64,000 bases of DNA from Candidatus Kuenenia stuttgartensis (GTDB lineage Bacteria > Planctomycetota > UBA11346). The notes beneath the pieces are model-generated. The model saw only the letters and a program-made list of their open reading frames with translations. It searched no databases and was not told the DNA's origin. Location of the stretch: the NCBI GenBank assembly GCA_945876185.1, contig CAMCMZ010000002.1, forward strand, positions 88,073 through 152,072, in the 5' to 3' direction. Shown piece after piece: positions 6,009 through 26,304 of this stretch (its first letter is position 1; every line of letters starts with the position of its first letter). A program made the position numbers and the translations under genes.

Positions 6009-7280
6009 TCATAGCCGGATCCAGCGTTTGGACTTCAGCTCCGGTCGCGGCAGGGTGCCCGGCGAAACCGATCGCACCGGGATGCGCAGCGACAGCGCGG
6101 CGCGCAGTTCCTCGTGCAGGCGCTGGGCGAGCTGGTCGCCGTCGGCGCCCGGCTGCGGTTCAGATTCGACGGTGAGTTCGAGCATGCCGCGCTCGCTGGC
6201 GAGCAGGCAGCGGAACTCGGCGAGTTCACCGAATCGCCGCGCCACCGATTCGATAGCGGCGGGCCAAACGTTGATGCCGCGAATCACCACCATGTCGTCG
6301 CTGCGGCCAAGAATGCCGCCGTCGAGCGCAAGATGCGCCACGCCCTCCGGCGGTTCAGTGGCCGCGCGCACCAGATCACCGGTGCGGTAGCGCAAGAGCG
6401 GCGAGCCGAGACGGCCGAGGTTGGTGAGCACCAGTTCGCCAATCGCGCCGGCTGGCACCGGCGCCAGGGTCGCGGGATCGATGATTTCGGCGATGTAGGA
6501 CGTTTCCAGGATGTGGAGGAATCGTGGATGTTCCACGTTCTGCCACGACACCGGGCCGATCTCGGTCATGCCGTGGTGGTCGACGACCACCGCGCCTGGC
6601 CAAAGACGGTTCAGGATGGCGCGGGTCTCGGGAATGCTTCCGCCGGGTTCACCGGCGACAAACAGGCGGCGCAGGGTCGGCACCGCGATGCCCTCGGCCT
6701 GCGCCGTCTCGCCCAGTCGAATTGCATAGGTCGGGGTTGCGAGCAGCACCGTGACGCCGGCATCGCGCATGAGTTCCAACCGGGCGCGGGAACTCAGGCC
6801 ACCGCCGGGCAGACAGCAACAGCCCAGGCGAGCGGCGGCTTCGAAGGCGGTCCAGAAGCCGAGGAAAGGCCCGAACGAAAATGCTGCGAAAACCCGGTCA
6901 TTCCGGCCGATTCCCACAAAGTGCAGGAAGCGCACCCAGTTGCCGAGCATCCATTCCCAACTGGAGGCGGTGTCGAGCCAGCGCAGTGGCACCCCGGTCG
7001 AACCGCTGGTCTGGCAAAAGCGCGAGTAGCGGCCGAGGTCGTAGGTGAGGTTGCTGCCGAACGGAGGATGGGCGCGTTGATCCGCAACCAGTTCCGCCTT
7101 GGTGGTGAATGGGAAACGTGCGTGGAAAACAGCACGATCGCAGGTCGCGGTCGTCAATCCGGCCTGGCACAGCTTCGTCGTCCAGAATGGATTCGCGCCG
7201 TCGATTTCGCGCAACAACGCTGCAAGCAGGCGATCCTGCTCCTCACGTATCAATTCGCGGGTTTCCACGCTGCGCGGCAT
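6009..7280 (-). CDS. PaaK-like AMP-dependent acyl-CoA ligase
   Basis: FCQTSGSTGVPLRWLDT, YRTGDLV, GRSDDMVVIRGINVWPAAIE, C-terminal PRPELKSKRW. Confidence 0.85.
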   Translation of the reverse strand: MPRSVETRELIREEQDRLLAALLREIDGANPFWTTKLCQAGLTTATCDRAVFHARFPFTTKAELVADQRAHPPFGSNLTYDLGRYSRFCQTSGSTGVPLRWLDTASSWEWMLGNWVRFLHFVGIGRNDRVFAAFSFGPFLGFWTAFEAAARLGCCCLPGGGLSSRARLELMRDAGVTVLLATPTYAIRLGETAQAEGIAVPTLRRLFVAGEPGGSIPETRAILNRLWPGAVVVDHHGMTEIGPVSWQNVEHPRFLHILETSYIAEIIDPATLAPVPAGAIGELVLTNLGRLGSPLLRYRTGDLVRAATEPPEGVAHLALDGGILGRSDDMVVIRGINVWPAAIESVARRFGELAEFRCLLASERGMLELTVESEPQPGADGDQLAQRLHEELRAALSLRIPVRSVSPGTLPRPELKSKRWIRL

Positions 7281-7283
7281 GGC

Positions 7284-7850
7284 TCAGCGCGTCGACGCAA
7301 CGCTGGATACTGGTGCTTCGGGCGCCTTCACGACCTCGGCTGGCTTCTTGGGCGGTGGATTTGCGGGCTTGTAGAGCGACACCAGCGAGGCACCGGCAAT
7401 GGCGAGCAGGATACCGAGCACGAACTGCCAGCGGATCGCGCCGAGTCCCTCGGCGGGCGGATGCAGGATAATCGCGGTCACCGCGTTGATGATCGGTGCC
7501 CCGGCGAAGACGATAGTCATCACCACCACCGGGTTGCCTTTCGCTCCGAAGGCGAGCAGCACGCCAAGGGCGCCGATCGCGCCCACGATGCCAGCCGCCA
7601 GCGACCACCACAGGCCCTTGCCGGGATAGCTCCAGTCTGCTCCGTTCATCCACAGGATGGCGAGCGGCGCGAGCACGGCGGTGAGAAAGTAGGCTACGCC
7701 GACGATGAGGAACGCTTTGATGCGGCCGTTCGCGGGATCGGCCATGCCGAGCTGGCCGGTGTGAAGAAGGATGCCGTAGACACCCCACGACACCACGGTG
7801 GTGAGGGTGAAGACGATCCAGAGGGCGGGATTGGTGAGGGCGGAGGGCAT
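7284..7850 (-). CDS. EamA/DMT-like membrane protein
   Basis: Multiple TM helices; WGVYGILLHTGQ...VGAIGALGVLLAFGAKGNPVVVMTIVFAGAPIINAVTAI. Confidence 0.65.
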   Translation of the reverse strand: MPSALTNPALWIVFTLTTVVSWGVYGILLHTGQLGMADPANGRIKAFLIVGVAYFLTAVLAPLAILWMNGADWSYPGKGLWWSLAAGIVGAIGALGVLLAFGAKGNPVVVMTIVFAGAPIINAVTAIILHPPAEGLGAIRWQFVLGILLAIAGASLVSLYKPANPPPKKPAEVVKAPEAPVSSVASTR

Positions 7851-7870
7851 GGGGTCCTTTTAGGCTTCGA

Positions 7871-8305
7871 TCAAAAGGGGAAATCGTCGTTACGTGATAC
7901 ACGCTCGACTTCCCTGTCCTTTGAAAACAGGGCGAAAACATCAGACATAATCCGATTGACCGAAGCCACTCGGTCAACCGCAATCACCTTCGTGAGTTTT
8001 CTCCAACTCCAGACCTTATCTTCGGTCACCGAGGACATGACAGCATAGTCGTGCACATTTCCCGCCTCATCTGGACGGCAATACACGGTGAGTCCAAGGG
8101 GAATCGCCAGGCCCTTGACCTCAATCCACCAACCCCAGTCCTCATTGCAAAACCAGGGGATGTCGTGGTCTGCTTCTCTCAGGTTGTCCTGAAGGTACTG
8201 GCAGATCGCCCGTCCATACATCCCGGGATTGACCAGTTCCTCGTCCTCTCCAGGCATCTTGTGAAATTTCCTGGTATGGATGGCAACGCAGATGCCAGGG
8301 ATCAT
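7871..8305 (-). CDS. Hypothetical protein
   Basis: Open frame with ATG at 8305; no family recognised. Confidence 0.45.
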   Translation of the reverse strand: MIPGICVAIHTRKFHKMPGEDEELVNPGMYGRAICQYLQDNLREADHDIPWFCNEDWGWWIEVKGLAIPLGLTVYCRPDEAGNVHDYAVMSSVTEDKVWSWRKLTKVIAVDRVASVNRIMSDVFALFSKDREVERVSRNDDFPF

Positions 8306-8348
8306 GGGATGACCAGTCCGTCGCATCGGCCCACGTCGGCACCACCAC

Positions 8349-8457
8349 GTAGCGCCGGCTTCAGCCGGCATGGACGGTGGGCTTCAGCCCACCGATCGCT
8401 GGTGCAAACTTGTGGCGACTGAAGTCGACACTCCGAGCCGGCTGAAGCCGGCGCTAC
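8349..8457. repeat. Intergenic hairpin cluster with TTCA/TGAA loops (REP-like)
   Basis: gtagcgccggcttcagccggc (8349-8369) and its exact reverse complement gccggctgaagccggcgctac (8437-8457), with ggtgggcttcagcccacc between. Confidence 0.9.
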
Positions 8458-8485
8458 GGAAGGCAGATCCGGGGAAATCACCGCT

Positions 8486-8914
8486 TCAACCTGCCACCGT
8501 CAACTGCTCCGCCCACGCCGGCAACGGCTGCGAGCGGATCTGCCCATCGACGCGCCCAACCGGGACGACGACCAGGCGGCCGGTGGCGAGGGGCGGTTGG
8601 CTTTCCTCGCCGGGACGGGTGAACGTGAAGCCGTAGGTGATCGCGCGCTCTTTCTTCTCCAACACGCTCAAGGTCACCGCCACCTCGTCATCGTAGCGCA
8701 GCGGGCGGCGGTAGTCGCACTCGGCGTGCACGCGCGGCCAGCCGATCACGCCCTCGGGCGCGTCTTCGCCGGGATGGACGCTGGCGCCGAGCGAACGCAC
8801 GAAGGCGTGCTCGCAGGCCTCCATGTAGCGGAAGAAGACCGAGAAATGCACGATCCCGGCCATGTCCGTTTCGTGGAACTCGACCCGGCGCAGGTGGGTG
8901 AAGGTGGCGGGCAT
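8486..8914 (-). CDS. Hotdog-fold acyl-CoA thioesterase (4-hydroxybenzoyl-CoA thioesterase-like)
   Basis: RRVEFHETDMAGIVHFSVFFRYMEACEHAFVRSLG is the typical YbgC/4HBT signature. Confidence 0.9.
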   Translation of the reverse strand: MPATFTHLRRVEFHETDMAGIVHFSVFFRYMEACEHAFVRSLGASVHPGEDAPEGVIGWPRVHAECDYRRPLRYDDEVAVTLSVLEKKERAITYGFTFTRPGEESQPPLATGRLVVVPVGRVDGQIRSQPLPAWAEQLTVAG

Positions 8915-8922
8915 GGGCGGGG

Positions 8923-10188
8923 TCAGGCCTTCGCCGCCGCGCGCTGCGGGAAGTACGGCGTGCCGAAGTCGAGCAGGGGCGGGATCTTGGCGAATTCGCC
9001 AAATGCGGCGAAGAGCTTGGTGAAATCCTTGTCGACCGCGCCGATGATGCAGTCGGTGAGATCGGCTTTCAGTTCCGGGTACTTGCGGATGAAGCTGCCG
9101 TAGTTGGTCGACGGGTCGTAGAAGGCGTAGACCAGCCGGCGCATGTTCTCGACCCCGTTGCAGTACTGCTTGCCGTAGCCGGCGAAGGCGGCGGCCGAGG
9201 TGTCGCCCTTGACCAGCGCCGCGTGGACGGCGTCGGCGGCGAGTTCACCGCTGCGCAGCGCGAAGAACGCGCCGGACGAGAATACCGGATCGAGGAAGTT
9301 GAAAGCGTCACCGGCCAGCACCAGGCCGTCCGTGGCACAGTGCTGAGAACGGTAGCTGTATTCATTGGTAATCTGCACGTCTTCGATCTGCTTCGCCGGA
9401 GCAAGGTGCTCGACCAGCCACTTGTTCTCGCGCACTTCGCGGTGGTAGATCTCGGACAGGTCCTGGGTGTCGCGGAAGAGGTATTCCTTCTTCGCGACCA
9501 CGCCGACGCTCATCACGTCGTCGTGCAGCGGGATGTACCAAAACCAGCCCTTGTCAGGAATATAGCAGACCGTGGTGGCCCCCCCGGCCCGGCCGGCATC
9601 GCGGGTGGCGCCCTTCCAATAGGTCCAGATCGCGAAGCGGTCGAGCGGCACGTCGGGCCGGCGCCAGTTGAACTGGTTGACGGATAGGCAGTCGCGGCCC
9701 GAGGCGTCGAGTACGATGGGTGCGCGCAACTCGAATTCTTTGCCGGCAGCGTCGGTGCCGGCGACGCCGACCACGCGGCCATCTTCAAGGACCAGGCGCT
9801 TGGCCTGGTAGCCATGGCGGATCTCGGCGCCTTTTTCGCGGGCGTTGTCGCGCAGCATCGCGTCGAATTCGCTGCGTCGGACCTGCCAGGTCTGAGTCGC
9901 GGGATGATCGAAGTGGCTGTCGAAGAAGAACGGCTGCGACTGCTTGCCGTCGGTGCTGACGAAGCAGATCGAGTACTTCTTGGTAAAATGGCTGGCCCGC
10001 ATCTTGTCGAGCATGCCGATGCGTTCGAGGGTGAAATACGTGTACGGGATCAGCGATTCGCCGATGTGGTAGCGCGGGAAGGCGGACTTGTCGAGCACCG
10101 TGACCTTATGCCCGTGCTGGGCGAGCACGGTGGCGGCGGTGGTGCCGGCGGGGCCGGCTCCGACGACGATGACTTCGGGAGTGCTCAT
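8923..10188 (-). CDS. FAD-dependent oxidoreductase, flavin-dependent halogenase-like
   Basis: VIVVGAGPAGTTAATVLAQHGHKVTVLDK; FPRYHIGESLIPY; WFWYIP matches WxWxIP; LVLAGDAFNFLDPVFSSGAFFAL. Confidence 0.85.
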   Translation of the reverse strand: MSTPEVIVVGAGPAGTTAATVLAQHGHKVTVLDKSAFPRYHIGESLIPYTYFTLERIGMLDKMRASHFTKKYSICFVSTDGKQSQPFFFDSHFDHPATQTWQVRRSEFDAMLRDNAREKGAEIRHGYQAKRLVLEDGRVVGVAGTDAAGKEFELRAPIVLDASGRDCLSVNQFNWRRPDVPLDRFAIWTYWKGATRDAGRAGGATTVCYIPDKGWFWYIPLHDDVMSVGVVAKKEYLFRDTQDLSEIYHREVRENKWLVEHLAPAKQIEDVQITNEYSYRSQHCATDGLVLAGDAFNFLDPVFSSGAFFALRSGELAADAVHAALVKGDTSAAAFAGYGKQYCNGVENMRRLVYAFYDPSTNYGSFIRKYPELKADLTDCIIGAVDKDFTKLFAAFGEFAKIPPLLDFGTPYFPQRAAAKA

Positions 10189-10823
10189 GGCTGGGTCTCC
10201 GGTTGGGTTGGGGTTTGGGGAAGATGCGAAAGATGAGGGAAGAGAGCTGCCGGCGGCAGGATCTCGACCACCTCGGCTAATGGATGACCGTCTGCCAGCG
10301 CGATGGTGTTGCAACGGCCGTACAGGGTCGGCTGTTCAGTCGGTAAGATCGCGAACAGCCGAGCCAGAACGCGGTCGGTTTCGACGCGGAAGAATGCCGA
10401 CGGCTGGCTGAAATGCGGCACCTGGTAGTGCGCCAGGATGCCACCGAACGGCTTGCAGCCGTGCAGGATCTCCTCCTGGGCCGGGGCGGGCAGGCGGTCG
10501 AGGTGGATGCGGATCGCGCCGTATTCCACCGGACGGTCGCCGCTGTCGAGCAGCATCACCTGGCGGCGGTAGTCGGGATGGTGGTGGATCGAATCGAGCA
10601 CGACGATGTGCAGCGGACAGCCGTGGAACGCGATGAGGTTGGGCGTCATGTCGCGCTGATTGACGAGCAGGGTGCGGTACGGCTCGGGCATCGCCGAGCC
10701 ATCGATCACTGCCGGGATGGATGACGGCGTGCCGGCCCCGGCTTCAGCCAACGGCGCGAAGCGAGGGTCGCGGGTGGCGACCTGGGCCAGCTGGGCCCGA
10801 CGGCGGATGGTCGCCGTGGTCAT
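10185..10823 (-). CDS. Chorismate pyruvate-lyase (UbiC)-like protein
   Basis: PYRTLLVNQRDMTPNL...YRRQVMLLDSGDRPVEYGAIRIHL...LYGRCNTIALADGHPLAEVVEILPP resembles the UbiC fold pattern. Confidence 0.6.
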   Translation of the reverse strand: MTTATIRRRAQLAQVATRDPRFAPLAEAGAGTPSSIPAVIDGSAMPEPYRTLLVNQRDMTPNLIAFHGCPLHIVVLDSIHHHPDYRRQVMLLDSGDRPVEYGAIRIHLDRLPAPAQEEILHGCKPFGGILAHYQVPHFSQPSAFFRVETDRVLARLFAILPTEQPTLYGRCNTIALADGHPLAEVVEILPPAALFPHLSHLPQTPTQPETQP

Positions 10824-10852
10824 GTCAGGCGGCCTTTGGCTGGAGCTCAAGT

Positions 10853-12229
10853 TCACGCATATCTGGCCCCAGCGTGCTTGGGAAGGAAGAACGCGTGCAG
10901 CAGGCGGTCGACTTCGAGCAGCGCGCCGCGGGTCAGGGTCAGGCGGGCGCCGTCGATCTCGGCCAGTTTCTGGCTGACCAGGTCATCGAGCTGCGGCTTG
11001 AAGCGCACCAACGGATCAGTGCCGAACTTCTTGGTGAAATAAGAGGTGTCGAGGTGGCCGAGCTTCATCTGCAGGATGAACTCGCGGATCAAGCGTTCAT
11101 CGTTGTCCGGGGTCAGCGCCCGGTGGATGGGCAGCTCGCCCTTCTTCACCCGGTCGACGTAGGGCGCGAAGTCGTGCTCGTTCTGGTAATGGACCCCATT
11201 CAAGTGCCCGAACGAAGCCACGCCGAGGCTGAGCAGATCGGCGCCGGCCCACAGGCTGTCGCGGTAGACGAAGCTGGTCTTGCTCGGATTGCGCACGGCG
11301 GTGTAGGCGCTTTTCACTGCGTAGCCGGCGGCTTCGAGCGCGGCGAAGGCCTCGGCCACCCAGCGTCGCTTGGTCTGCCAGTCGGCGACCGGGGCGGTGA
11401 TCTTGCCCTCGGCTTTCATCTGCTTGTAGATCGTCGTATTGTACGGGACCTCCATCTGGTAGATGGTCACCGAATCCGGCGCCATCGCGATGGTCTTGAC
11501 GATATTGGCGCGCCAGTTGTCTTCCGTTTCGTTCATCATCCCGGCGATGAGGTCGATGTTCACCTGCGGAAATTCGCACGAGCGGGCGTAGTCGTAGGCG
11601 CGCTGGATCTGGGCCGACAGATGCGCGCGGCCGTTGCTTTCCAGGATGTGGTCGTCGAAGTTCTCGACCCCAAGGCTCAGGCGCGTGACGCCGATATCGC
11701 GGATGGTGCGGATCTTGCGGTCGGTGAGCGTCCCTGGCTCGCACTCGAAGGTGACCTCTTCGGCGCCTTCCCACGACACCTCGCGCTTCATGCCATCAGT
11801 CAGCGCGACGAGCTGTTCCGGCGAGAGGAACGACGGGGTGCCGCCGCCGAAATAGACGAACTGGGCTTTGCGGCCGACGATCGCGGGCTGCTTGGCATAG
11901 AGCGCAAGTTCGGCCAGGGCGGCGTCGAGATAGCCTTGGATCTCGTCGTTCTTCTTGTCGGTGTAGACCCGGAAATAGCAGAAATGGCAGCGCTTGCGGC
12001 AGAACGGGATGTGCAGGTACACCCCGAGCGGATTGCCGGGCCGGGGCGGCTTGGCGATCGCGGCGTGGGCTTCGTTGACGCGGGCTGTGTCCCAGTACGC
12101 GTACGGCGGGTAGTTGGAAACGAAGTAGTTGCCGACCGTGGTCTGCTCGGCGCTGTCTCCGCCCGCACTGTCTCCGCCTGCACCGGTGGCAGCAGCGAGA
12201 TCCGTGGAAGCCTGGGGCTCGGTGGTCAT
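10853..12229 (-). CDS. HemN-like (coproporphyrinogen III oxidase family) radical SAM protein
   Basis: GVYLHIPFCRKRCHFCYF (CX3CX2C), VYFGGGTPSFLSPEQL, FECEPGTLT, TRLSLGVENF. Confidence 0.85.
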   Translation of the reverse strand: MTTEPQASTDLAAATGAGGDSAGGDSAEQTTVGNYFVSNYPPYAYWDTARVNEAHAAIAKPPRPGNPLGVYLHIPFCRKRCHFCYFRVYTDKKNDEIQGYLDAALAELALYAKQPAIVGRKAQFVYFGGGTPSFLSPEQLVALTDGMKREVSWEGAEEVTFECEPGTLTDRKIRTIRDIGVTRLSLGVENFDDHILESNGRAHLSAQIQRAYDYARSCEFPQVNIDLIAGMMNETEDNWRANIVKTIAMAPDSVTIYQMEVPYNTTIYKQMKAEGKITAPVADWQTKRRWVAEAFAALEAAGYAVKSAYTAVRNPSKTSFVYRDSLWAGADLLSLGVASFGHLNGVHYQNEHDFAPYVDRVKKGELPIHRALTPDNDERLIREFILQMKLGHLDTSYFTKKFGTDPLVRFKPQLDDLVSQKLAEIDGARLTLTRGALLEVDRLLHAFFLPKHAGARYA

Positions 12230-12281
12230 GGCTGCCGTCCTGTCTATTGGTGGCGGTGGGGCACCGCCGGGGAATTCGAAC

Positions 12282-13460
12282 TCAGGCGGCGTGGAGCGCC
12301 GCGCGATACAGCGCGAGGAAGGCCTCGCGATCGACCGGCCGCGGATTGAACCGGCCGGTCCATTGAGTGGTGGCCGATTCCACCAGGGCGGGAAGGTCGG
12401 CCTCCGCGACGCCACAATCGGCCAAGCCGGAGGGCAGTCCGGCGAGACGGGCAAGCCCTTCGACCCGACTGATGAGCGCATCGACGGCGGCGACCGTAGT
12501 CCCGCCTGGGTTGAGTCCAGCCTGCACCGCCAGCGCGGCATAGATCTCGGCCGTGGCTGGATCACCGGCGTTGAAGCGCAGGACGCTCGGCAGCATCATC
12601 CCCACCGCCTGGCCGTGCAGGATGCCGTGGCGGATGGTGAGCGGATTTGCGCAGGCGTGGGTGGCACCCAGCATGCTGTGCTCGATCGCGACGCCGGCCC
12701 AGGCCGCGCCGACCTGGATCGCCTGACGGGCGTCGAGGTCGGACGGGGTTTCCAGCACGCGGGGCAGGTTGGCCTGGATGAGGGCGAAGGCCTCGCGGGC
12801 GAACAGCGACGACACCGGCGTGCGCTTGGTGGTGACCGCCGTTTCCAGCGCATGCACCAGGGCATCGAAGCCGGTCAAGGCGGCGACCCGGCGCGGCTGG
12901 GTCAGGGTCAACTCGGGATCAAGCAGCGCGATGCGGGCGAGCGCCTTGGGATCGCCGCAGGCCATCTTCTGGTGGCTCTCTTCATCGACGATGAGTGCGA
13001 ACGACTGGCATTCGCTGCCGGTGCCGGCGGTGGTCGGCACCGCGATGAGTGGCAGGAACGGCTTGCTGGCCGCCCCGGTGTGCCAGTAGTCGCGCATCTT
13101 GCCGCCATTCGAATACAGGAAATTGCAGCCCTTGGCGGTATCGAGCGAACTGCCGCCACCGGCGGCGACGATGGCGTCGGGGCCGAAGGCGCGCGCGGCG
13201 ATCAGGCAGGCGTCGACCTCGCGGGTGCCGGGATTCTCGCGCACGCGGTCGAAGACCTCCACGGCGATCTCAGCCGCTTGCAGGTTGGCGACCAGCCGGG
13301 CCGCATGGCCGGCGCTGACGATGCCGGGATCGGTGACCAGCAGGACGCGGCTGGCGCCGAGTTCACGCGCCAGCGCGCCCAATCGCGCGGCCACCCCGGG
13401 GCCAGAGATGATCCGAGGCCGGGCGGCGAAGTCGAACGCGCTGACCACCCCGGCAGTCAC
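12282..13460 (-). CDS. Iron-containing alcohol dehydrogenase
   Basis: GGGSSLDTAKG, PTTAGTGSE, GFDALVHALE, HACANPL...HGILHGQAV metal-ligand motifs. Confidence 0.9.
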   Translation of the reverse strand: MTAGVVSAFDFAARPRIISGPGVAARLGALARELGASRVLLVTDPGIVSAGHAARLVANLQAAEIAVEVFDRVRENPGTREVDACLIAARAFGPDAIVAAGGGSSLDTAKGCNFLYSNGGKMRDYWHTGAASKPFLPLIAVPTTAGTGSECQSFALIVDEESHQKMACGDPKALARIALLDPELTLTQPRRVAALTGFDALVHALETAVTTKRTPVSSLFAREAFALIQANLPRVLETPSDLDARQAIQVGAAWAGVAIEHSMLGATHACANPLTIRHGILHGQAVGMMLPSVLRFNAGDPATAEIYAALAVQAGLNPGGTTVAAVDALISRVEGLARLAGLPSGLADCGVAEADLPALVESATTQWTGRFNPRPVDREAFLALYRAALHAA

Positions 13461-13469
13461 GCTGCCGCC

Positions 13470-14906
13470 TCAGCCAGCGACCTGCACGGCGCGGCGGCGA
13501 TAGAGGAACTCGAAGAGGTTGCCTTCATGGGGCTGATCCCAGTGGACGTGACTGGTCGGCATCGCGCCGAGATTCAAACGATGGATGAGCGGCGAGGCCA
13601 GCAACGCGCGGCGCCAGGCGGGATCGTCACCGATGGCCGAGACCACCAGCGAAGGCCCGATGAGGTCGAGCATGCGGCTCTGCGGCACCTCCACCACAGA
13701 CGTATACGGGAAGAGGAACTCGCGGTTGGCGAGTGGATGGTCGAAGCTTCCACAAGCGACCACGGTGGGCAGCAGGTAGGTGCGGCCGTCGTGGACGACC
13801 AGGCGCGGACCGGCGCGCAGCTTGGCGCTGTGGTCGACCGCGCCGGGTTCCTTGAGCCCCTGATCGATGCTGGCCGAGATCGATTCCGCCATCGCCGGGT
13901 TGGCGAAGCCGGCGAGACCGGCGCCGGCATCGTCGGCCGAGCGCGGAACGATCGTCGCCAGACGTTCGGCCAGGGCAGCGGCGATGGCAGCGCCGTTGCG
14001 CGGGACCACGATCGCCGAGGCGTTGACGCACGAGCGTCCGCCATTGGCGGCGACGGAATCCGCCAGGACGGGGATCAGTTCCTGCCAACGGTCGATGTGC
14101 GTCTCGCCAATAAGCACCTTGCTGTAGCCGGGGCCGTGGACTTCCACGCGCGGATCGCTGGCCCAGCGCTTGGTGATGCTGGCGTCGCCGAACAGCAGCG
14201 AGCGACCGCAGCCGGCGAGCACGGTGTGGGCGCCGTCGTGGCCGGTCGGGTAATAGCCGAACGCCTTGGCCGGGACGCCTCCCGCGATCAGCGCCTGGAT
14301 GATGCGCCAGGGTGTCCACGGATCGTCGCGACCGGGCTTCAGGATCACCGGCACCTTGAGGGCGAGCGCGGGGATCCACAGGGAATTCACGCCAGGCGAG
14401 TTCGACGGCAGCACCACGCCCAGGGCGTCGGCGGTGCGGTAATAGCTGACCGGCACGCCGGACTGGGTGCCCAGGCCGGCATCGATCACGGCGGGATCCA
14501 ACCCGCGCGTCAAGCCGCGCAGGATCTCGTCCATGTTGTTCAGGACATAGGCGATCTTGCCCATGTTGTTGCGCACCAAGGCGTGCGGCAGACCGGTGCT
14601 GGCCGAGGCCTGACGCACGTAGTCCTCGGGCGCTTGCTGGTCGCCGGCGTCGCCCACCGGCAGGGTGCCGTGCTGGTAGAGTTCACCCGCCTTGCGGCAC
14701 ATGGCGAACAACTGCGCCGTCGGGATGTCCTGCAGGGCCGCGACGGCGCCCGACAGATTGAGCAGATCGCGGCGGATCAGGCCGGAGTTGACCTGGCTGA
14801 CTACGGCCCCGGCCGTGGTCGCGGTGTCCTGGCTGCGGTAAGCAGTGCCGAAGCGCAGGGCGGGGATGTGAATGCGGGGCCCCTCTGGGGTGTCGTGTGT
14901 AGCCAT
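13470..14906 (-). CDS. Aldehyde dehydrogenase-superfamily acyl reductase, LuxC-like
   Basis: GVVLPSNSPGVNSLWIPALALKVPVILKPG; ELGG region replaced by EVHGPGYSKV; catalytic Cys in GGRSCVNASAIVV. Confidence 0.75.
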   Translation of the reverse strand: MATHDTPEGPRIHIPALRFGTAYRSQDTATTAGAVVSQVNSGLIRRDLLNLSGAVAALQDIPTAQLFAMCRKAGELYQHGTLPVGDAGDQQAPEDYVRQASASTGLPHALVRNNMGKIAYVLNNMDEILRGLTRGLDPAVIDAGLGTQSGVPVSYYRTADALGVVLPSNSPGVNSLWIPALALKVPVILKPGRDDPWTPWRIIQALIAGGVPAKAFGYYPTGHDGAHTVLAGCGRSLLFGDASITKRWASDPRVEVHGPGYSKVLIGETHIDRWQELIPVLADSVAANGGRSCVNASAIVVPRNGAAIAAALAERLATIVPRSADDAGAGLAGFANPAMAESISASIDQGLKEPGAVDHSAKLRAGPRLVVHDGRTYLLPTVVACGSFDHPLANREFLFPYTSVVEVPQSRMLDLIGPSLVVSAIGDDPAWRRALLASPLIHRLNLGAMPTSHVHWDQPHEGNLFEFLYRRRAVQVAG

Positions 14907-14909
14907 GAT

Positions 14910-16031
14910 TCAGTACACGCCTTCGATGATCTTGCCGCTCTGGGCCCCGAACGGCCGCACGTCGGCGACACCATCCCAGGGATAACAGACGTAGGGTTCG
15001 CGGCGCTGGGCCTCGTCGCGCTCCAACAGACGCGGCATGAAGAACTCCTTGGTGAAGGTCGACAGCTCGACCCGGCCCCAACCCCCGACGGCGACGTCCT
15101 TGGTCGAATCAGCGGGGTCGACCACGCGCAGCACGGCGCGCGGTTGCGGCGCGTGGTAGACCACGCTCCAGCCGCCCTTGGCCGAGACTGGCTCGCTACA
15201 GGCCAGACCCATCAGGGTGTTGCCATAGGTCGGCACGAACTGGGCTTTGCCTTCCAGCACTTCCTCGGCCAGGAAGCGCACCACTTGCGGCGTCATTGAG
15301 GTGCCGCCGCAGAACACGCCCTTGATGCCGAGGCCGACCAGCGAGGTGCGCTCGGCCATGGCTTCCAGGATCTTCGGGGTGGTGAACAGGCAGTTGATGC
15401 CCTGGCGGTGGCGCAGGATGGTGATCGCCTGGTCGACGACGTGCTCTTTGTAGGCCTCGGCCTGGGCGTAGTCGCCCTTGCCGATGCAGCGCTTCACCCA
15501 GCGCGGGTCGAGGTCGAGGTGATAGCAGCAGCCGCCGCGCACGTTGGCGAGGTGCTCGATCGCCAGGCGCAGCCGGCGCGGGCCGGTCGGACCGGCCATC
15601 AGCCAGTCGGAACCCTTGGGGAAGTACTTCTCTTCGATGGTGTTCGAGAATTCCGAGTAGTCGTGGTCGTGGTCGGTCCACGAGATGCGCTGCTTCGGCA
15701 TGCCGGTGGTACCACCGGTCTCGAAGATCTTGAACGGCTTGCCGGCGTAGGCCTTGGGCACCCAGCGCTTGGGCTGTTCGTCGCGCAGCCATTCGTCGTT
15801 GAAGTTGGGGAAGCGCAGGATGTCGGCGAAGCCTTTGACCTCCTTCGCCGGATCCCAGCCCGCCTGCTTGGCCCAGTCGAGCCAGAACGGGCTGCCGGTC
15901 GCCGGCGAGAAGTGCCACTTCACGATCGCGCGCACGTGCGCGTCGAGCTTATTCTTCGCCTCGGCGACGGCGTCGGCCTTTGCTGAAGATTTTGCGGCGG
16001 AGGACTTGGCGGTTTTGGCGGACGAGGTCAT
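14910..16031 (-). CDS. Short AMP-dependent acyl ligase, PaaK/LuxE-like
   Basis: FETGGTTGMPKQRISW ATP-binding loop; 373 aa, ends just after YPWDGVADVRPFGA, so lacks the usual C-terminal lid domain. Confidence 0.8.
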   Translation of the reverse strand: MTSSAKTAKSSAAKSSAKADAVAEAKNKLDAHVRAIVKWHFSPATGSPFWLDWAKQAGWDPAKEVKGFADILRFPNFNDEWLRDEQPKRWVPKAYAGKPFKIFETGGTTGMPKQRISWTDHDHDYSEFSNTIEEKYFPKGSDWLMAGPTGPRRLRLAIEHLANVRGGCCYHLDLDPRWVKRCIGKGDYAQAEAYKEHVVDQAITILRHRQGINCLFTTPKILEAMAERTSLVGLGIKGVFCGGTSMTPQVVRFLAEEVLEGKAQFVPTYGNTLMGLACSEPVSAKGGWSVVYHAPQPRAVLRVVDPADSTKDVAVGGWGRVELSTFTKEFFMPRLLERDEAQRREPYVCYPWDGVADVRPFGAQSGKIIEGVY

Positions 16032-17680
16032 GGGGTGACAGCTCCGGTGTTGGCGTTCTTGGGGGGGAAGTACTTGTCGATGATTGCCTGCGGCGGCGGC
16101 CGGCTGATCAGCGACCCGACGACCATCAGGACGGCTCCGATGAGGACCATCGGCATGACCGGCAGGAAGCCATAGATGGTCACCCCGCCACGGCCGCGCA
16201 GGAATAGTTCACCCAGGTCAGCGAAGATCGGCACATAGGGCACGCCGGGCTTGAGGGTCTTGATCAGCGGTTCGCTGTAGTTGTGCAGCCACCACACCCC
16301 GATCATCGCGATCACTACCCAGATCACCGCGAGCCAGGCGCCAAGGGCGGTCGATCGCTTCCAGAACATCGCGCCGAGCATGACCGGCGCGAGCGCGGCG
16401 AAGCCCGAGAACGCGAAGCGGATGGCGAGTTCGAAGATGCCTTCCTGCTTCTTGAGGGCGACCGCGATGAGGTAGGCGACGAGGCAGATGACCACGATGA
16501 AGATGCGGCCGGTCCAGATCTGGACCTTGTCGCCAAAGCGCTTCTGGCCGCCGTAGTGCGCGAATATGTCCTGGGTGAACATGGTGGTCAGGGCCATGAT
16601 CTGGCTGTCCGACGCCATGACGCAGGCCATGATGCCGGCCCCGAGGATGCCGGCCATCCACACGCTGGTGTACTTGGTGAGCAGGTCGGGAATGACGTCG
16701 TTGGTCTCGCCCGGCTTCAATCCGGGCAGCAGGTCGGCCGAGATCAGGCCAAGGTAGACGCAGGGCAGCCAGATCGCGGCGATGCAGAGCGGGTAGAAGA
16801 TCACGGTCTTCTTGAAGTGGCTGACCTTTTCCGCGGTGAAGCACATGATCGCGATATGCGGGAACATGATCGCCGACAACGGGATGAACATGTAGCTGAA
16901 GAACTCGGCCTGAGGGATGCGATCGCGCGCGAGCAGTGGGGCGAGGGTCTTGTTGTTGGCGATGCGTTCCATCACCACGTCGAAGCCGCCGATGTTGTGG
17001 CTGAGGATGATCACCGCGACGGCGCCCATGCCGAGGAACAGCACGGTCTGGAAGGTGTTCACCCAGGCCGTGCCACGCATGCCGCCGAAGAACACGTAGC
17101 TCATCACGACCAGGGCGACCAGGGCGCCGCCGAGTTCATAGGGGATCCAGTGCTGGTGCTCCTGCACGGCCTTGCCGTTCCGCATGACCTCGACCAGGAC
17201 CGCCTTGCCGTCAGCCCCGGTGACCACGCTGATCGATTCCATCACCTCGCCGCCACCCATCACCCCGATGATGATGTAGGGCACGAGCATGACCGCGGTG
17301 ACCAGGAAGATCAGGGTGCCCAGCGACGACGAACCCCAGCGGTCGCGGAAGTAGCTGACCTGGGTCATGTGGCCGAACTTCTTGCCCAGGCTCCAGAGCC
17401 GGGTGCCGATGAAAAATATCGTCAGCGGGATGACGATGGCCGAGGCCGAGGCCATCAGGCCGAACACGCCGATGCCGCGTGAATAGGTCAGTCCCGAGCT
17501 GCCGAGGATGGCGAACGCGGTCATGTTGGTACCGAACAGCGAGAGCAGGAAGACCCACTGCCCGAGCGACCGGCTGGCGACGAAGTAGTCCTCGCTCGAA
17601 TTCTTGCCCTTGCGGAAGGCGAAGACGCCGATGTAGAGGACGATGGCAAGATAGATGAAGACGACGATCGCGGGAATCAC
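16028..17680 (-). CDS. Sodium:solute symporter (SSS) family transporter
   Basis: Many TM helices; FRKGKNSSEDYFVASRSLGQWVFLLSLFGTNMTAFAILGSSGLTYSRGIGVFG. Confidence 0.9.
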   Translation of the reverse strand: MIPAIVVFIYLAIVLYIGVFAFRKGKNSSEDYFVASRSLGQWVFLLSLFGTNMTAFAILGSSGLTYSRGIGVFGLMASASAIVIPLTIFFIGTRLWSLGKKFGHMTQVSYFRDRWGSSSLGTLIFLVTAVMLVPYIIIGVMGGGEVMESISVVTGADGKAVLVEVMRNGKAVQEHQHWIPYELGGALVALVVMSYVFFGGMRGTAWVNTFQTVLFLGMGAVAVIILSHNIGGFDVVMERIANNKTLAPLLARDRIPQAEFFSYMFIPLSAIMFPHIAIMCFTAEKVSHFKKTVIFYPLCIAAIWLPCVYLGLISADLLPGLKPGETNDVIPDLLTKYTSVWMAGILGAGIMACVMASDSQIMALTTMFTQDIFAHYGGQKRFGDKVQIWTGRIFIVVICLVAYLIAVALKKQEGIFELAIRFAFSGFAALAPVMLGAMFWKRSTALGAWLAVIWVVIAMIGVWWLHNYSEPLIKTLKPGVPYVPIFADLGELFLRGRGGVTIYGFLPVMPMVLIGAVLMVVGSLISRPPPQAIIDKYFPPKNANTGAVTP

Positions 17681-17922
17681 TTGCCGGCTCCTTTGTTTTT
17701 AGCGGCGGCGGCAGCTTCTTTTGCTTCGTCTTCATCGAGGTGCTTCGGCCACATCGTCTTGACCAGCAGCAGCATGGTCAGCGAGGCCGCCACAGCGTAG
17801 CAGGCGTGATAGAACAGGCCGATCGGAATCAGGCCGCCGACCAGGGACCGGTCAGGCCAGTTCCAGAAATCCTGGTGCAAGGCGATCAGCAGCACCACCC
17901 AGGCGGTGACGAGGTATTTCAC
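17677..17922 (-). CDS. Small membrane protein, DUF3311-like SSS partner
   Basis: 81 aa, two TM helices (PIGLFYHACYAVAASLTMLLLV); 4-bp overlap with the SSS gene. Confidence 0.65.
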   Translation of the reverse strand: MKYLVTAWVVLLIALHQDFWNWPDRSLVGGLIPIGLFYHACYAVAASLTMLLLVKTMWPKHLDEDEAKEAAAAAKNKGAGK

Positions 17923-19514
17923 TTGGAACCTTCAGCCGCGACGGCGTACAGATGGGTGTTGGTGGTGACGAACAACGTCCGATTGGCGTAGATCGGCGAG
18001 GCGATGACCGAGGCAGGCAGGGCGGTGACGCCCAGGACCTGCTTGGTCTTGCCCAGGGCGAGGCAGGTGAAGTTGCCTTTTTCGTCGCCGATGAAGACCT
18101 TGCCATCCAACGCATAGGTCGAGGACCAGACTTTTTCCTTGAGATCGTGGGTCCAATACGCCTTGCCGGTCAGGGCGTCGACGCAATGGACGGTGCCGGA
18201 GAAGTCGGCGACATAGATCAGGTCATCGACGATCGACATGGTCGAGATCGAACGACGGATGGCGTCGTACGACCACACCTTGCCGCTGGTGGTGATGTCG
18301 CCGGTCTTGGTCGGATCGATGCAGTGCAGGAGGCCAAGGCCTTCGCCATGTTCGGGATCCTGCCCGACCTGGGCGTAGACCTTGCCCTTGTACAGCACCG
18401 GGCTGGCGATGAGTTCGCTGACGCCGTCATAGGCGGGATACTTGATCGCCTTGCCGTTGCGGCTCTTGCGGTCGGCGGGATTGCAATCGTACCACCAGAT
18501 CTTTTTCAGGGTGTCGACGTCACCGATCTTCGTCGGGACGGGCTCGATGCCATAGCACCAGCCGTCGCCGCCACCGTAGACGAGCTGGTTCTTGCCGTCG
18601 AAGCTGCCGTAGGACAGCGACGACCAGAGCCCATGCAGGATGCGCGGGCCCTGCTGCAGATCGTCCTCGGCGATGAACTTGCCGGTCTTCTTGTCCAGGG
18701 CGATGAGCGATGGCGCCTTGGGCGCGGGCACGTTGACGTGGGACCAGTCCTGGCCGTTGGAGGTCACGACGTAGATGGTGTCACCAATGATGAGCGGAGA
18801 CGAGTTCGCCGCGTTGTGATGGAAGACGCCGAGTTCTTCCATCATGTCAAAGCGCCAGACGATGTCGGCATCGGTCGGGCCGGTCGGGATCGGGCTCGCG
18901 TTGGCGCCAACGCCACCAAGGTACTTGGCCTCGTCCTGGAAACCCTCGTTGCCGCCGGCCAGACCCTTGACGGTCAGGCAGAGCACCTCGCAGCGCGGGG
19001 TGACGACGTAGACGTAGTTGCCCTCGACCGTGGGCGAGCAGGTCATGCCGACGAATTCCCAGTCGTTGACCTTGCCGCTTTCGAGTTTCGGGGTCGCGAG
19101 CTGCCACAGCAGCTTGCCGGTCTTCTCGTCCAGGCAGTAGAGGCAGTTCTTGTCGCCCTTGAACTTGGGATCGCGCGGGGCCTCGTTGTTGGTGCCGACG
19201 AAGATCCGCCCACCAGAGACGGTCGGGGTGCCAAAGGACTGGGATCCCAGCTTGGCGACCCAGCGCAGGCCCTTGGTGGTGGCGGGATCGATGTCCTCTT
19301 TGCCGGGAAATGGCTTGCCCGGCTCGAAGGTCGCCGGCACGCCCTTGGCACCGGGGTGGTACATGTTGCGGCTCGGATTGCCGCCCCACTGGGGCCAGTC
19401 GGCTCCGACCTCGGCCAGGGCCGCCGGGCGGGGCGTGTCAGCGCAGGCCGCCATGCTGATCAGGACGGGGGCGGCGCAGACCAGGGATGTAAGGATGCGG
19501 GCGATGGCGTTCAT
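17919..19514 (-). CDS. Secreted PQQ-binding-like beta-propeller protein
   Basis: Signal peptide MNAIARILTSLVCAAPVLISMAACA; repeated blades such as CLDEKTGKLLWQL, ALDKKTGKF, CVDALTGKAYWTHDL. Confidence 0.85.
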   Translation of the reverse strand: MNAIARILTSLVCAAPVLISMAACADTPRPAALAEVGADWPQWGGNPSRNMYHPGAKGVPATFEPGKPFPGKEDIDPATTKGLRWVAKLGSQSFGTPTVSGGRIFVGTNNEAPRDPKFKGDKNCLYCLDEKTGKLLWQLATPKLESGKVNDWEFVGMTCSPTVEGNYVYVVTPRCEVLCLTVKGLAGGNEGFQDEAKYLGGVGANASPIPTGPTDADIVWRFDMMEELGVFHHNAANSSPLIIGDTIYVVTSNGQDWSHVNVPAPKAPSLIALDKKTGKFIAEDDLQQGPRILHGLWSSLSYGSFDGKNQLVYGGGDGWCYGIEPVPTKIGDVDTLKKIWWYDCNPADRKSRNGKAIKYPAYDGVSELIASPVLYKGKVYAQVGQDPEHGEGLGLLHCIDPTKTGDITTSGKVWSYDAIRRSISTMSIVDDLIYVADFSGTVHCVDALTGKAYWTHDLKEKVWSSTYALDGKVFIGDEKGNFTCLALGKTKQVLGVTALPASVIASPIYANRTLFVTTNTHLYAVAAEGSK

Positions 19515-21826
19515 GGGGCCTTCTTCGCGGAAGCGTTCGGGGTGACCGAGATATTGTCGAGGTAGACGCGCTGTTCGGTCGGGCTGAAGCCGAACAAGCC
19601 GGGGGATCCCTGGCGATGGGCGACCTGGTGCGTAGTTTCGATGGTCCAGGCCGCCGGTTCGGCTTCGTCGCGTTTCCAGGCCTTGGCGCGGACGACCCCG
19701 CTGCCGTCGGGGTTGAGATCCACCCGGGCGGTCATGCGATACCACACTCCGGGGGTGACCGTGAACGGCACCGAGGCGCGGATGCGTTCGAGGTTGGAAT
19801 TGATCTCAAGTTCCTGGGCATTGCCCTTGAGGATGATCATGTAGCGCTGGTTGATCAGGCCGACCTCGCTCATCTTGCGGCGGTTGCCATCCGTCTTCAT
19901 GTCGGCCTGGATGGTGTAGTCGGACTGGTCGGCCAAGCCGATGAACACCGTCGCACGCTGGAAGAGACGGTTGTCGATGGTCTTGGTGAACACCTTGTTG
20001 CCGTCGACCTCGGTGACCTCCCACTTGAGGCGCGCGCCGATCCACGGCAGGGGCGGGTAGGCGAAGACATGGTCGAACTTCACCGGTTTCTTGTCGAACA
20101 TGTGGGTGTCGCTGAGTTCGTATTGCGAGAAGTCCTCTTTGATCGGCAGGTTGTTGAGGATGCGGCCGCGCAGGTAGCCGGTGAGGTTGCCGGCGGTGGC
20201 CTTGAACATGCCGGCCGACGGGCGTGGCTTCACCTCGGCGATGATGGTGCCGGGATCGGTCCACGAGGCGTCGAGCAGGCTCTGGATGCGGGCGGTGGGC
20301 GGAATGAATTTTTCCCAGGTCACGGGCGCGCTGGCGTGGTAGTCGACCGGCAGACCATCGGCGTCGACCGCACCCATCTTGACCGCCCGATTTTCACCGG
20401 TGCGCAGGATGACCTCGGCGGGAATGGGCTGCAGTTTGACCGGCGCAGCGGTGGACTTGGGCAGCGTGGCCACCGGTGCCGGGGTGGGGGAGGCGCGCAC
20501 GGTGCCGAAGCAATAGAGTTTCTCAGTGCTGTGGATGTAGACGCGGCCGTGGGCGATCGCGGGGGCGCCATTGTTTTCGCCCGCCAGCTTGACCGACGAC
20601 AGGACCTCTGCCTTGGTGTCCGTGGGCCGGACGATCAAGAAAGTGCCATCCTTGATCGGCACATAGAGTTTGCCGTCGCCGTAGGCGATGGACGAATGAA
20701 GCTGATCGATGCCGAATTTTTCATGCCAGAGCTGCTTGCCGGTCTTGGCATCGACCGCGACCAGTTCGGCGGTTTCGGTGGTCAGGTAGATCCGGTCACC
20801 GACCACGATGGGCGAACTCGACCAGGCAGCCAAGCCGGGGTTGCGCCAGACCTCTGCCGAGCGCGGCAGGATCGGGGTCTGACTGACCTCGATATCGGCC
20901 GGACCGGCCTTGACCTTCAGGTCGATGGCGACCAGCCGGCCGCTTTCGCTGGTGTCGACGTTTTCCTTGGCGTGGATGGCGACCAGGCGATCGTCGCCCA
21001 GAAGAAGCACGGAACTGTTGATGCCGCCATAGGACAGCGGGAATCGCCACTGCGGTTCCCCGGTGTTGGCGTCGATCGCCACTACGTTGCCGCAGCCGGT
21101 GCCAGAGAAGAATACTTCGCGTTTGCCAAGCTTTCCGAACACCGGCGTGCCCATCGAGTTATCTTTGGGCCGGATGCCGGGGCTTGAGGACCAGATCTGG
21201 TCGCCGGTGCGTTTATCATAGGCATAGAAGCGGTCCTGCACCGGTCCGTGGGCGCCCCAGTTCGAGGTCATGCAGTGCACGATCACCAGATCGCGGTGGA
21301 TCGACGGCGGTCCGGTGCGGCCGTTGGGGAAAGTCATGCGGCCGAGTTCTTCCATCAGCGATCGGTGCCAGAGCGCCTTGCCGTCGGCCGTGAACGCCGC
21401 GAGCATGCCGGCCGAGGTCTGGACGTAGACGTTGCCGGTGTCGCCGTCGATGACCGGCGCACCAATCGAGTAGCGGCTGTAGATGATGTCGCTCAGGAAA
21501 TCGCTGAAGCCCTGTTCCCAGACGGTCTTGCCGGTCGCGGCGTCGAGGCAGCGCAGAACCTCGCGCATCATTTGGCCCTCGCCCTGGTAGCCCAGGACGT
21601 AGACGCGTTCACCCCGGATGACCGGGGTGCCGCGGCCCATCAGGGCGACCTCCCACAACTGGCCAGCCCCACCCGGCGTCCACGACCCGGGCAGGTCCTT
21701 CTCATCGCTGACCCCGTTCTGATGCGGACCGCGCCAACCCAGCCAGTCGGCCTCGCTGGCAGCGGTGGGGGTCGCAGCCAGGACGGCAAACATGAGGCAG
21801 CCGAACAGGCAAAAACGGGAAATCAT
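19511..21826 (-). CDS. Secreted PQQ-binding-like beta-propeller protein with C-terminal domain
   Basis: Blades CLDAATGKTVWEQ, AIDANTGEPQWRFPL, AVDAKTGKQLWHEKF; N-terminal signal; 4-bp overlap with next gene. Confidence 0.85.
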   Translation of the reverse strand: MISRFCLFGCLMFAVLAATPTAASEADWLGWRGPHQNGVSDEKDLPGSWTPGGAGQLWEVALMGRGTPVIRGERVYVLGYQGEGQMMREVLRCLDAATGKTVWEQGFSDFLSDIIYSRYSIGAPVIDGDTGNVYVQTSAGMLAAFTADGKALWHRSLMEELGRMTFPNGRTGPPSIHRDLVIVHCMTSNWGAHGPVQDRFYAYDKRTGDQIWSSSPGIRPKDNSMGTPVFGKLGKREVFFSGTGCGNVVAIDANTGEPQWRFPLSYGGINSSVLLLGDDRLVAIHAKENVDTSESGRLVAIDLKVKAGPADIEVSQTPILPRSAEVWRNPGLAAWSSSPIVVGDRIYLTTETAELVAVDAKTGKQLWHEKFGIDQLHSSIAYGDGKLYVPIKDGTFLIVRPTDTKAEVLSSVKLAGENNGAPAIAHGRVYIHSTEKLYCFGTVRASPTPAPVATLPKSTAAPVKLQPIPAEVILRTGENRAVKMGAVDADGLPVDYHASAPVTWEKFIPPTARIQSLLDASWTDPGTIIAEVKPRPSAGMFKATAGNLTGYLRGRILNNLPIKEDFSQYELSDTHMFDKKPVKFDHVFAYPPLPWIGARLKWEVTEVDGNKVFTKTIDNRLFQRATVFIGLADQSDYTIQADMKTDGNRRKMSEVGLINQRYMIILKGNAQELEINSNLERIRASVPFTVTPGVWYRMTARVDLNPDGSGVVRAKAWKRDEAEPAAWTIETTHQVAHRQGSPGLFGFSPTEQRVYLDNISVTPNASAKKAP

Positions 21827-22087: not shown

Positions 22088-23617
22088 TCATCGCTTGATC
22101 TCAGCGGGATCCCAGCCCGCCAACGGTGGCCGGGTCGGCACGGCGAACCGGTCGGCCAGACCGGCGCGGGCCAGCTTGCCGCCAGGTCCGGTCGGCAACG
22201 CCTCGACCCACAACCAGCGGCGTGGCCGCTTGTAGCCGCTCAGGTTCGCCTGCATCCAGGTCGCCAGTTCTGCGTCGTCGGGAATCACGGTTTTCGCCAC
22301 CAGCACCGCCGCCACCGACTGGCCCCAGGCCGGATCAGCCAGGCCCACGACTGCCGCAGCGGCGATGGCGGGATGACGCACCAGGACGGCTTCGACCTCG
22401 GCCGGGTAGATGTTCTCGCCGCCGCTCAGGATCAGGTCATCGCGGCGACAGGCGATGGTCACGAATCCGTCATCATTAAGCGACCCCAGGTCGCCGGTGG
22501 CGAACCAGGCTCCAGTGATCTCGCCCAGTTCCCCGTCGGATTCGTAACCGGCGAACAACGTCGGCCCGGCGATCTCGATCTGACCGATCGTGCCGTTCGC
22601 GACGGGCAGGTCGCCGTTGCGGATGCGCAGGCGCACCCCCGGCAACGGGCGACCCGCGCTGGTGGGATGCGCCGTATATTCGCTGGGCAGCAGGGTGGCG
22701 ACCTGGCTGCACGCCTCGGTCAGACCATAGGTCTGGCTTGGTGCCAGGCCGAGATCAGCCGAACGCCGCGCCAGATCTGCGTCGAGCGGCCCGCCGCCGG
22801 TCAGCAGGCAGCGCAAGCGGCGCGGCCACGGTCGACCGGCGCGATCATCGATGAGCCGCGCGAGCATGGTCGGCACCACGCTGATGCCGGTGATGGGTTC
22901 AGCGTCGAGCAGGTGGTTGATCTCGGCGGCCTCGAAACGGCTGGTGATCCACAGGCCGCAGCCGCTCCAGGCGGCGCGCAGCACGGTCGCCGCGCCACCG
23001 ATGTGGTCGAGCGGCAACGGACAGCACCAGCCGTCCTCTGGCGTCAGCCCCAGGTGCGTCACCGCCGCCTGCGCCGCCCGATTCACCGCCAGCATCGGCA
23101 GGCGGGCCGCCTTGGGGCGTCCTGAGGTGCCCGAGGTGAACAGCACCAGGGCCGGATCCGCGAGCGATGACGAACGCACCGGCGCGTCGTCATAGGCCGG
23201 TGCCGGCGCCAGGGTCAACCGGCGCGGCCCGGTCGGCGGACTGAGGACGGATCGGGGTTCGCGCGGATCCGGGAGTTCGAGGCCTGGCGGGGAAATTTCC
23301 TCGTCGGTCAGCGCTGCGGCCGGATGGTCGGGCGCCGCCAGCAACCAGTCGAGGTGCGCCCGCAGAACCTGGTCCCGCAATTCAGCGTGCGCCAGACGGT
23401 GGTTGAAGAGCACCATGGTCGCACCGAGTCGAGGCAAGCCGGCGAGCGCCGCTGCCGCCACCGCGTCATTGACCAACCCCAACCCGACCCGATCGCCCGG
23501 GCGGATGCCGGCCCGGCTGAAGGCCCGCGCCGCTGCGGATTCTCCGGGGAATATCCAGGGCGGATCGTCCTCGCCGGGATCCGGCCGCCGCGTCGGCCTG
23601 AGCCAACCAAGGGTCAT
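22088..23617 (-). CDS. menE: o-Succinylbenzoate--CoA ligase-like AMP-dependent synthetase
   Basis: LVLFTSGTSGRPKAARL, FATGDLGSLNDDGFVTIACRRDDLILSGGENIYPAEVE; adjacent to menC and menA. Confidence 0.8.
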   Translation of the reverse strand: MTLGWLRPTRRPDPGEDDPPWIFPGESAAARAFSRAGIRPGDRVGLGLVNDAVAAAALAGLPRLGATMVLFNHRLAHAELRDQVLRAHLDWLLAAPDHPAAALTDEEISPPGLELPDPREPRSVLSPPTGPRRLTLAPAPAYDDAPVRSSSLADPALVLFTSGTSGRPKAARLPMLAVNRAAQAAVTHLGLTPEDGWCCPLPLDHIGGAATVLRAAWSGCGLWITSRFEAAEINHLLDAEPITGISVVPTMLARLIDDRAGRPWPRRLRCLLTGGGPLDADLARRSADLGLAPSQTYGLTEACSQVATLLPSEYTAHPTSAGRPLPGVRLRIRNGDLPVANGTIGQIEIAGPTLFAGYESDGELGEITGAWFATGDLGSLNDDGFVTIACRRDDLILSGGENIYPAEVEAVLVRHPAIAAAAVVGLADPAWGQSVAAVLVAKTVIPDDAELATWMQANLSGYKRPRRWLWVEALPTGPGGKLARAGLADRFAVPTRPPLAGWDPAEIKR

Positions 23618-24669: not shown

Positions 24670-24764
24670 CAGGTCACGAACGGAGAGGATGGCGGGCACG
24701 GCGGCAGGGTTCGGGTTGGCTTGTATTTGGGATAGACGGAAGCGGTTCGGGATCCCTGAGCGTG

Positions 24765-25715: not shown

Positions 25716-25836
25716 GATCGGCGCAGTACAGGGTGGATGCGCGGACAGCGCAAGGCGCCGCCGGACCAGGACGTGACGGAGATGGCTGCGCGCCCCAGAC
25801 TGCGAAACCGGTTGCCGCACGGGTACTAACACAAGC

Positions 25837-26304
25837 ATGCCCGGCATGCCGGTGCGCTGGATCATCGCATGCGTCCTCCTGGTGATCATCGGCGTAGTCC
25901 TGATCCAGGTGCCGGTCTCCACCCGGGTGACCAAGGTGGACGCGCATACTGGCAGCCGCTCAGGTCATACCCGCACCTGGTTCGGAACCTTCGGCCGTTG
26001 GCAGGAGATCACCGCGTTCGAACGACGGTTGGAACGGCTGCTTTCTGGCGGCGTCGAGCATCGTTGGGTCTTCATCTCGGGGGACGAATACAATGTCTAT
26101 GGCGGCACGGTCGCCTTCAATTGCGGCAACAATCCGGCATTTGAACTGCACGGAGCCTGGATCGACCGTTGGGTGGAGCAGGCGTCCGACGCCGACCTCC
26201 TCGACCTCTATCACCTGCTCCGTACTCGCGATCGGGTGAAGATCACCGCTGCGGTGCGAGCGATTGCTGATCGTGGACTGGAGTTGCTCCGGAATCAGCC
26301 GTGA
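25837..26304 (+). CDS. Hypothetical protein with N-terminal TM helix
   Basis: VRWIIACVLLVIIGVVLIQVPV; open frame. Confidence 0.5.
   Translation: MPGMPVRWIIACVLLVIIGVVLIQVPVSTRVTKVDAHTGSRSGHTRTWFGTFGRWQEITAFERRLERLLSGGVEHRWVFISGDEYNVYGGTVAFNCGNNPAFELHGAWIDRWVEQASDADLLDLYHLLRTRDRVKITAAVRAIADRGLELLRNQP

Follow-up and report, generated by a model that had tools for sequence, protein, structure and literature searches.

The adjacent ligase and reductase genes described here very probably encode a two-component carboxylic acid reductase, dependent on ATP and NAD(P)H, of the kind represented by EhpF/EhpG and GriC/GriD. This assignment is built on homology, conserved residues, operon structure and conservation of the pair, with the enzymatic function taken by analogy from known systems. 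All coordinates given below are positions within the window, which is the whole 64,000-nt stretch of DNA analysed. The pair and its immediate neighbours are as follows.

16028-17680, minus strand: sodium:solute symporter (Pfam SSF, E=1.2e-39)
14910-16031, minus strand: ligase of 373 aa with an ATG start, a putative EhpF/GriC-type carboxylate-AMP ligase without the C-terminal lid domain (phmmer and the ends of homologues)
13470-14906, minus strand: reductase of 478 aa with an ATG start, a putative EhpG/GriD-type acyl-AMP reductase of the ALDH superfamily (tblastn, residue counts and AlphaFold model)
12282-13460, minus strand: iron-type alcohol dehydrogenase (Fe-ADH) of 392 aa (Pfam Fe-ADH, E=1.4e-48), conserved as third in order, following the pair

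The stop of the symporter gene and the start of the ligase gene overlap as ATGA, the ligase and reductase genes are separated by 3 nt, and the reductase and Fe-ADH genes by 9 nt, an arrangement which suggests that the genes from symporter to Fe-ADH form one transcript. Scans for promoters and terminators gave scores at or below chance. The open reading frames, the motifs and the Fe-ADH neighbour named in the original prediction were all found in place, with the frames intact and the Fe-ADH gene directly after the pair. An antisense open frame of 1056 aa (12129-15299, plus strand) lies opposite the operon and most likely results from codon use at high G+C.

The sole sequence relative of the ligase found in the PDB by phmmer was EhpF (3hgu/3l2k, E=3e-48), a D-alanylgriseoluteic acid biosynthesis protein, which aligned over residues 17-373, including the EGVY terminus, at approximately 32% identity. 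Against Pfam, the ligase matched only AMP-binding, and this below threshold. The ATP loop ETGGTTGMPKQ is retained at residues 104-114 and the stop falls about 10 residues after GVADVRPFGA, just as had been predicted; the C-terminal lid domain is absent, with the frame ending before it and the next gene following 3 nt away. Alignment of 13 ligase-family members showed hardly any variation in the ETGGTTGxPK ATP loop or in the YGNT and ERD motifs, and no invariant cysteine; catalytic residues were unvarying in 56 ligase rows. The same terminal tyrosine, followed by a stop, is found in all of the distinct homologues collected (55/55). The stop is therefore not misplaced, which rules out a truncated PaaK, and the loss of the lid domain is ancestral to the ligase family. 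The phenylacetate-CoA ligase PaaK shares the N-terminal ANL core with these proteins, but the EhpF-family members all lack its C-terminal lid. The EhpF structure of Bera et al. (2010) is reportedly that of an atypical ANL enzyme without a C-terminal domain, and the same authors are said to have proposed that EhpF and EhpG reduce phenazine-1,6-dicarboxylate via an adenylate. If this description is right, the lid-less anatomy was already known for the EhpF family. In full-length ANL enzymes, a C-terminal lysine helps adenylation; this residue is absent from the ligase, so that adenylation here would rest on the precedent of GriC.

The reductase matches only Aldedh in Pfam (33.3 bits against a cut-off of 23), a model that all of the family reductases compared also pass, and its AlphaFold model (pLDDT 82) adopts the ALDH fold with a TM of ~0.7. 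In a tblastn search over plasmids, it matched the proteins encoded just after the EhpF homologues of Pantoea, Streptomyces, Burkholderia, E. coli and haloarchaea, and its identity to EhpG is ~26%. Both motifs that had been read from the sequence are present, the cysteine-bearing GGRSCVN at residues 289-295 and HGPGYS, where ALDHs have ELGG, at 257-262. Asn169, Cys293, Glu396, Gly258, Gly260 and Lys263 are invariant in 40/40 reductase sequences, while the ELGG glutamate is missing in every row and a GPG(x)SK-type block (HGPGxSK) stands in its place. The HGPGYSK block, Cys293, Asn169 and Glu396 are hallmarks of the EhpG family, and the reductase groups with EhpG. Hydrolysis of the acyl-enzyme in ALDHs normally depends on water activated by the ELGG glutamate, and loss of this residue fits an enzyme running in the reducing direction. 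Nor did the analysis find the outcome that would have refuted the original prediction, a canonical ALDH beside an ordinary PaaK with a misplaced stop.

The ligase and reductase genes are kept together well beyond this genome. In 26 of 30 relatives from the phylum, the reductase gene lies downstream of that for the ligase at a distance of at most 1.5 kb, so the adjacency is not due to chance. Queries with either protein retrieve the same adjacent pairs in Pantoea (the ehp cluster), an E. coli phz plasmid, Burkholderia, Streptomyces and haloarchaea. Of 392 Planctomycetota genomes, 125 carry EhpF-family genes, mostly with EhpG adjoining, which extends a known but little-studied type of enzyme, the two-component carboxylic acid reductase, to much of this phylum. 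At four loci (L022, L040, L102 and L104), EhpF homologues have no EhpG gene in the surrounding locus, and this counts against the two-component reading in some relatives.

The chemistry of the pair is inferred from GriC/GriD. The lid-less ligase would convert an aromatic acid and ATP to an acyl-AMP, the acyl group would then move from AMP onto Cys293 of the reductase, and hydride transfer from NAD(P)H to the resulting thioester would release the aldehyde. The Fe-ADH, if it works in the reducing direction as we expect, would probably carry the aldehyde on to a benzylic alcohol. As described in the part of PMC10179220 that cites Suzuki et al. 2007, GriC activates 3-amino-4-hydroxybenzoate as its acyl-AMP, from which GriD produces the aldehyde by reduction. 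The grixazone enzymes of Streptomyces griseus share with the pair the reduction of an acid by two proteins via an acyl-AMP, differing in their 3-amino-4-hydroxybenzoate substrate, and they are its closest tested function and presumably its kin. A plasmid homologue annotated as an arylcarboxylate reductase also aligns with the ligase (32%). The EhpF/EhpG pair of D-alanylgriseoluteic acid biosynthesis in Pantoea agglomerans is alike in the end-to-end ligase match, the ligase-reductase gene order and the reductase motifs; it is unlike in the low identities given above and in its setting, as the pair here is accompanied by a symporter, Fe-ADH and β-propellers instead of phenazine core genes. Griseoluteic acid carries a 6-hydroxymethyl group, and EhpF-O act on phenazine-1,6-dicarboxylate (PMC3175449); the hydroxymethyl at the corresponding carbon is thus a precedent for onward reduction to an alcohol. 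Phenazine biosynthesis itself can be set aside, as there are no phz core genes among the annotated neighbours, though the nearest named homologues are phenazine genes. The earlier view of the pair as an acid reductase, followed by an alcohol dehydrogenase, is well supported by sequence and by analogy. The homologues also offer many new candidates for aryl aldehyde production that would not need the phosphopantetheine step found in ordinary CAR enzymes.

In the window, the pair is part of a longer gene cluster (6009-21826, minus strand), whose further members are listed here.

19511-21826, minus strand: PQQ-type β-propeller protein 1 (Pfam PQQ_2), the first conserved gene of the cluster
17919-19745 (start tentative), minus strand: PQQ-type β-propeller protein 2 (Pfam PQQ_2), in a conserved position
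10853-12229 (ATG at 12229 chosen), minus strand: HemN/HutW-like radical SAM enzyme (Pfam Radical_SAM, E=2.9e-19; PDB 1olt HemN and 9p2u NocN)
10185-10823, minus strand: chorismate-lyase-like protein of UbiC/DUF98 fold (AlphaFold model with Foldseek, and motifs)
8923-10188, minus strand: flavin-dependent halogenase-like enzyme of the CndH/CmlS/PltA group (GWFWYIP motif; PDB phmmer)
8486-8914, minus strand: 4HBT hotdog thioesterase (Pfam 4HBT_2, E=4.3e-10), conserved in the cluster
7284-7850, minus strand: small membrane protein, EamA-like (its homologue at locus L031 weakly matches EamA, E=0.0019), conserved in the cluster
6009-7280, minus strand: full-length PaaK-like aryl-CoA ligase with a lid domain (Pfam AMP-binding and AMP-binding_C_2), conserved in the cluster

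Gene-family HMMs run over 20 kb loci recovered a recurring order of approximately 12-17 genes in Planctomycetota and Verrucomicrobiota, and in part in Acidobacteriota (besides the window, loci L018, L020, L031, L096 and L110). The order begins with a divergent MarR gene, followed by propeller 1, propeller 2, the symporter, EhpF, EhpG, Fe-ADH, propeller 3 and the radical SAM enzyme, and continues with a small protein, the flavoenzyme, a GT4 glycosyltransferase, the hotdog thioesterase, the EamA-like protein, the PaaK-like ligase, an ABC ATPase and a MacB-like permease. The MarR, propeller 3, GT4 and ABC genes are not in place in the window cluster, and a GT4 homologue (42%) is encoded elsewhere in the same genome. 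In a tree, 49 sequences from the PVC group and Acidobacteriota form one clade (100/99), separate from those of Pantoea, E. coli and Streptomyces, with long branches leaving the deep order unsure. The shortest version, symporter-EhpF-EhpG, occurs on plasmids of the haloarchaea Halalkalicoccus and Halomarina (L114 4178-8236 and L116 3331-7212). This genome alone has MenE, MenC and MenA-like genes (22088-25934, minus strand) immediately upstream of the cluster, overlapping by 4 and 19 nt. A link to menaquinone was rejected, as these genes lie outside the conserved cluster in relatives. A literature search for the cluster returned no description, and while the pair belongs to a known kind of enzyme, its conserved cluster is new to us and appears to be undescribed.

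The nature of the acid is suggested by two cluster genes. The flavoenzyme at 8923-10188 matches halogenases in the PDB (8zop, 3e1t, 3i3l and 5dbj) with phmmer E-values down to 1.8e-53. Pfam gives no match for the protein at 10185-10823; Foldseek places its AlphaFold model nearest to DUF98 AF1396 (E=7.6e-8) and also matches it to E. coli UbiC (1jd3, E=1.9e-3), and hhalign against a UbiC profile gives a weak E of 0.072. A conserved Met-Thr, Arg86 and an L[YW]GR motif align with E. coli UbiC. Chorismate lyase activity is a reasonably likely prediction from model and sequence, held at a moderate level because UTRA domains have the same fold. Together, the chorismate-lyase-like and halogenase-like genes favour a 4-hydroxybenzoate-type acid as substrate or precursor, and the substrate of the pair is probably an aromatic acid derived from 4-hydroxybenzoate. 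The symporter suggests that acid may also be taken up. From its gene content, the cluster is likely to be a pathway for a 4-hydroxybenzoate-derived metabolite. A fuller scheme, which we put forward tentatively as one possibility, is an undescribed pathway inherited widely among Planctomycetota, Verrucomicrobiota and Acidobacteriota, in which chorismate would be converted to 4-hydroxybenzoate, modified by the halogenase-like enzyme, the HemN-like radical SAM enzyme and the glycosyltransferase, reduced at the carboxyl by the pair to an aldehyde or alcohol, and exported. Planctomycetota have few characterized natural products, and the product of this unassigned conserved cluster could be found by deletion or expression.

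Alternatively, the module may be catabolic, with the symporter importing an aromatic or other carboxylate which the pair reduces for use or detoxification rather than for synthesis of a metabolite; the chemistry of the pair would be the same. The overlap of the symporter and ligase genes is in keeping with this, as are the haloarchaeal plasmids, where the three genes occur without biosynthetic ones, and the divergent MarR gene of several relatives. It is nonetheless somewhat unlikely, as the bacterial cluster contains the halogenase-like enzyme, relatives add the glycosyltransferase and the MacB-like exporter, and the chorismate-lyase-like gene would supply the acid from inside the cell.

It is improbable that the ligase activates its acid for another acceptor, such as CoA, an amine or a carrier, and stands beside an ordinary oxidising dehydrogenase. 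All of the reductases do pass as Aldedh, and the PaaK-like ligase and thioesterase indicate that CoA thioesters are also handled in the cluster, but the general base of ELGG has given way to an invariant HGPGxSK-type block, the second half-reaction calls for a lid domain that the ligase does not have, and bacteria and archaea alike inherit the two genes as a pair.

The family label attached to the pair by sequence reading alone, LuxE/LuxC-like, needs correction to EhpF/EhpG (GriC/GriD). The suggested HMM comparison with the LuxC and LuxE families gave no match for either protein: Pfam LuxE (PF04443) matches none of 13 ligase-family members at E up to 1, and Pfam LuxC (PF05893) does not match the reductase at the same limit, with weak, sub-threshold matches in 3 of 10 reductase-family members (best 3.8e-4). 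The whole genome likewise contains no match to LuxC or LuxE. For profile-profile comparison, genuine LuxC and LuxE proteins were collected from the same phylum. By hhalign, the EhpG family scores slightly better against LuxC (prob 96.7, E 4.5e-10) than against three ordinary ALDHs (prob 94.6, E 6.8e-8), and the EhpF family matches LuxE at E=5e-8 and the PaaK-like ligase of the cluster at E=6.4e-9, although small alignments make any ranking of these scores weak. LuxC rows carry an [HY]G[HP]xxS block at the position of HGPGYS, so the likeness that had been noted there was fair, and by sequence the EhpG family is remotely related to LuxC. The families nevertheless score separately: with EhpG-family models, LuxC proteins reach no more than 19 bits in local HMM searches, and the reverse comparison no more than 24 bits. 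The C-terminal region of LuxE rows contains the invariant acyl-accepting cysteine (GCSL), to which the ligase family has no counterpart. The pair thus resembles LuxE/LuxC in outline, in its lid-less ligase and its ALDH-superfamily reductase without ELGG, yet by its sequence it is not a member of the Lux families and differs further in its operon and in the expectation of an aromatic rather than a fatty acid. A true fatty acyl-protein synthetase and acyl reductase, passing the acyl group through a ligase cysteine, would follow the same two-protein logic and would account for the remote profile similarity, but with the Pfam results, the genome search and the missing cysteine against it, this is very improbable and we reject it.

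Genuine LuxE-LuxC neighbours, with genes overlapping or nearly so, do occur elsewhere in Planctomycetota (loci L049 and L050, in genomes G023 and G027), and these score separately from the EhpF/EhpG families. A single planctomycete protein of 873 aa (L047 1393-4014) joins a LuxC half to a following PaaK-like ligase half, and this fusion is possibly a single-chain acid reductase.
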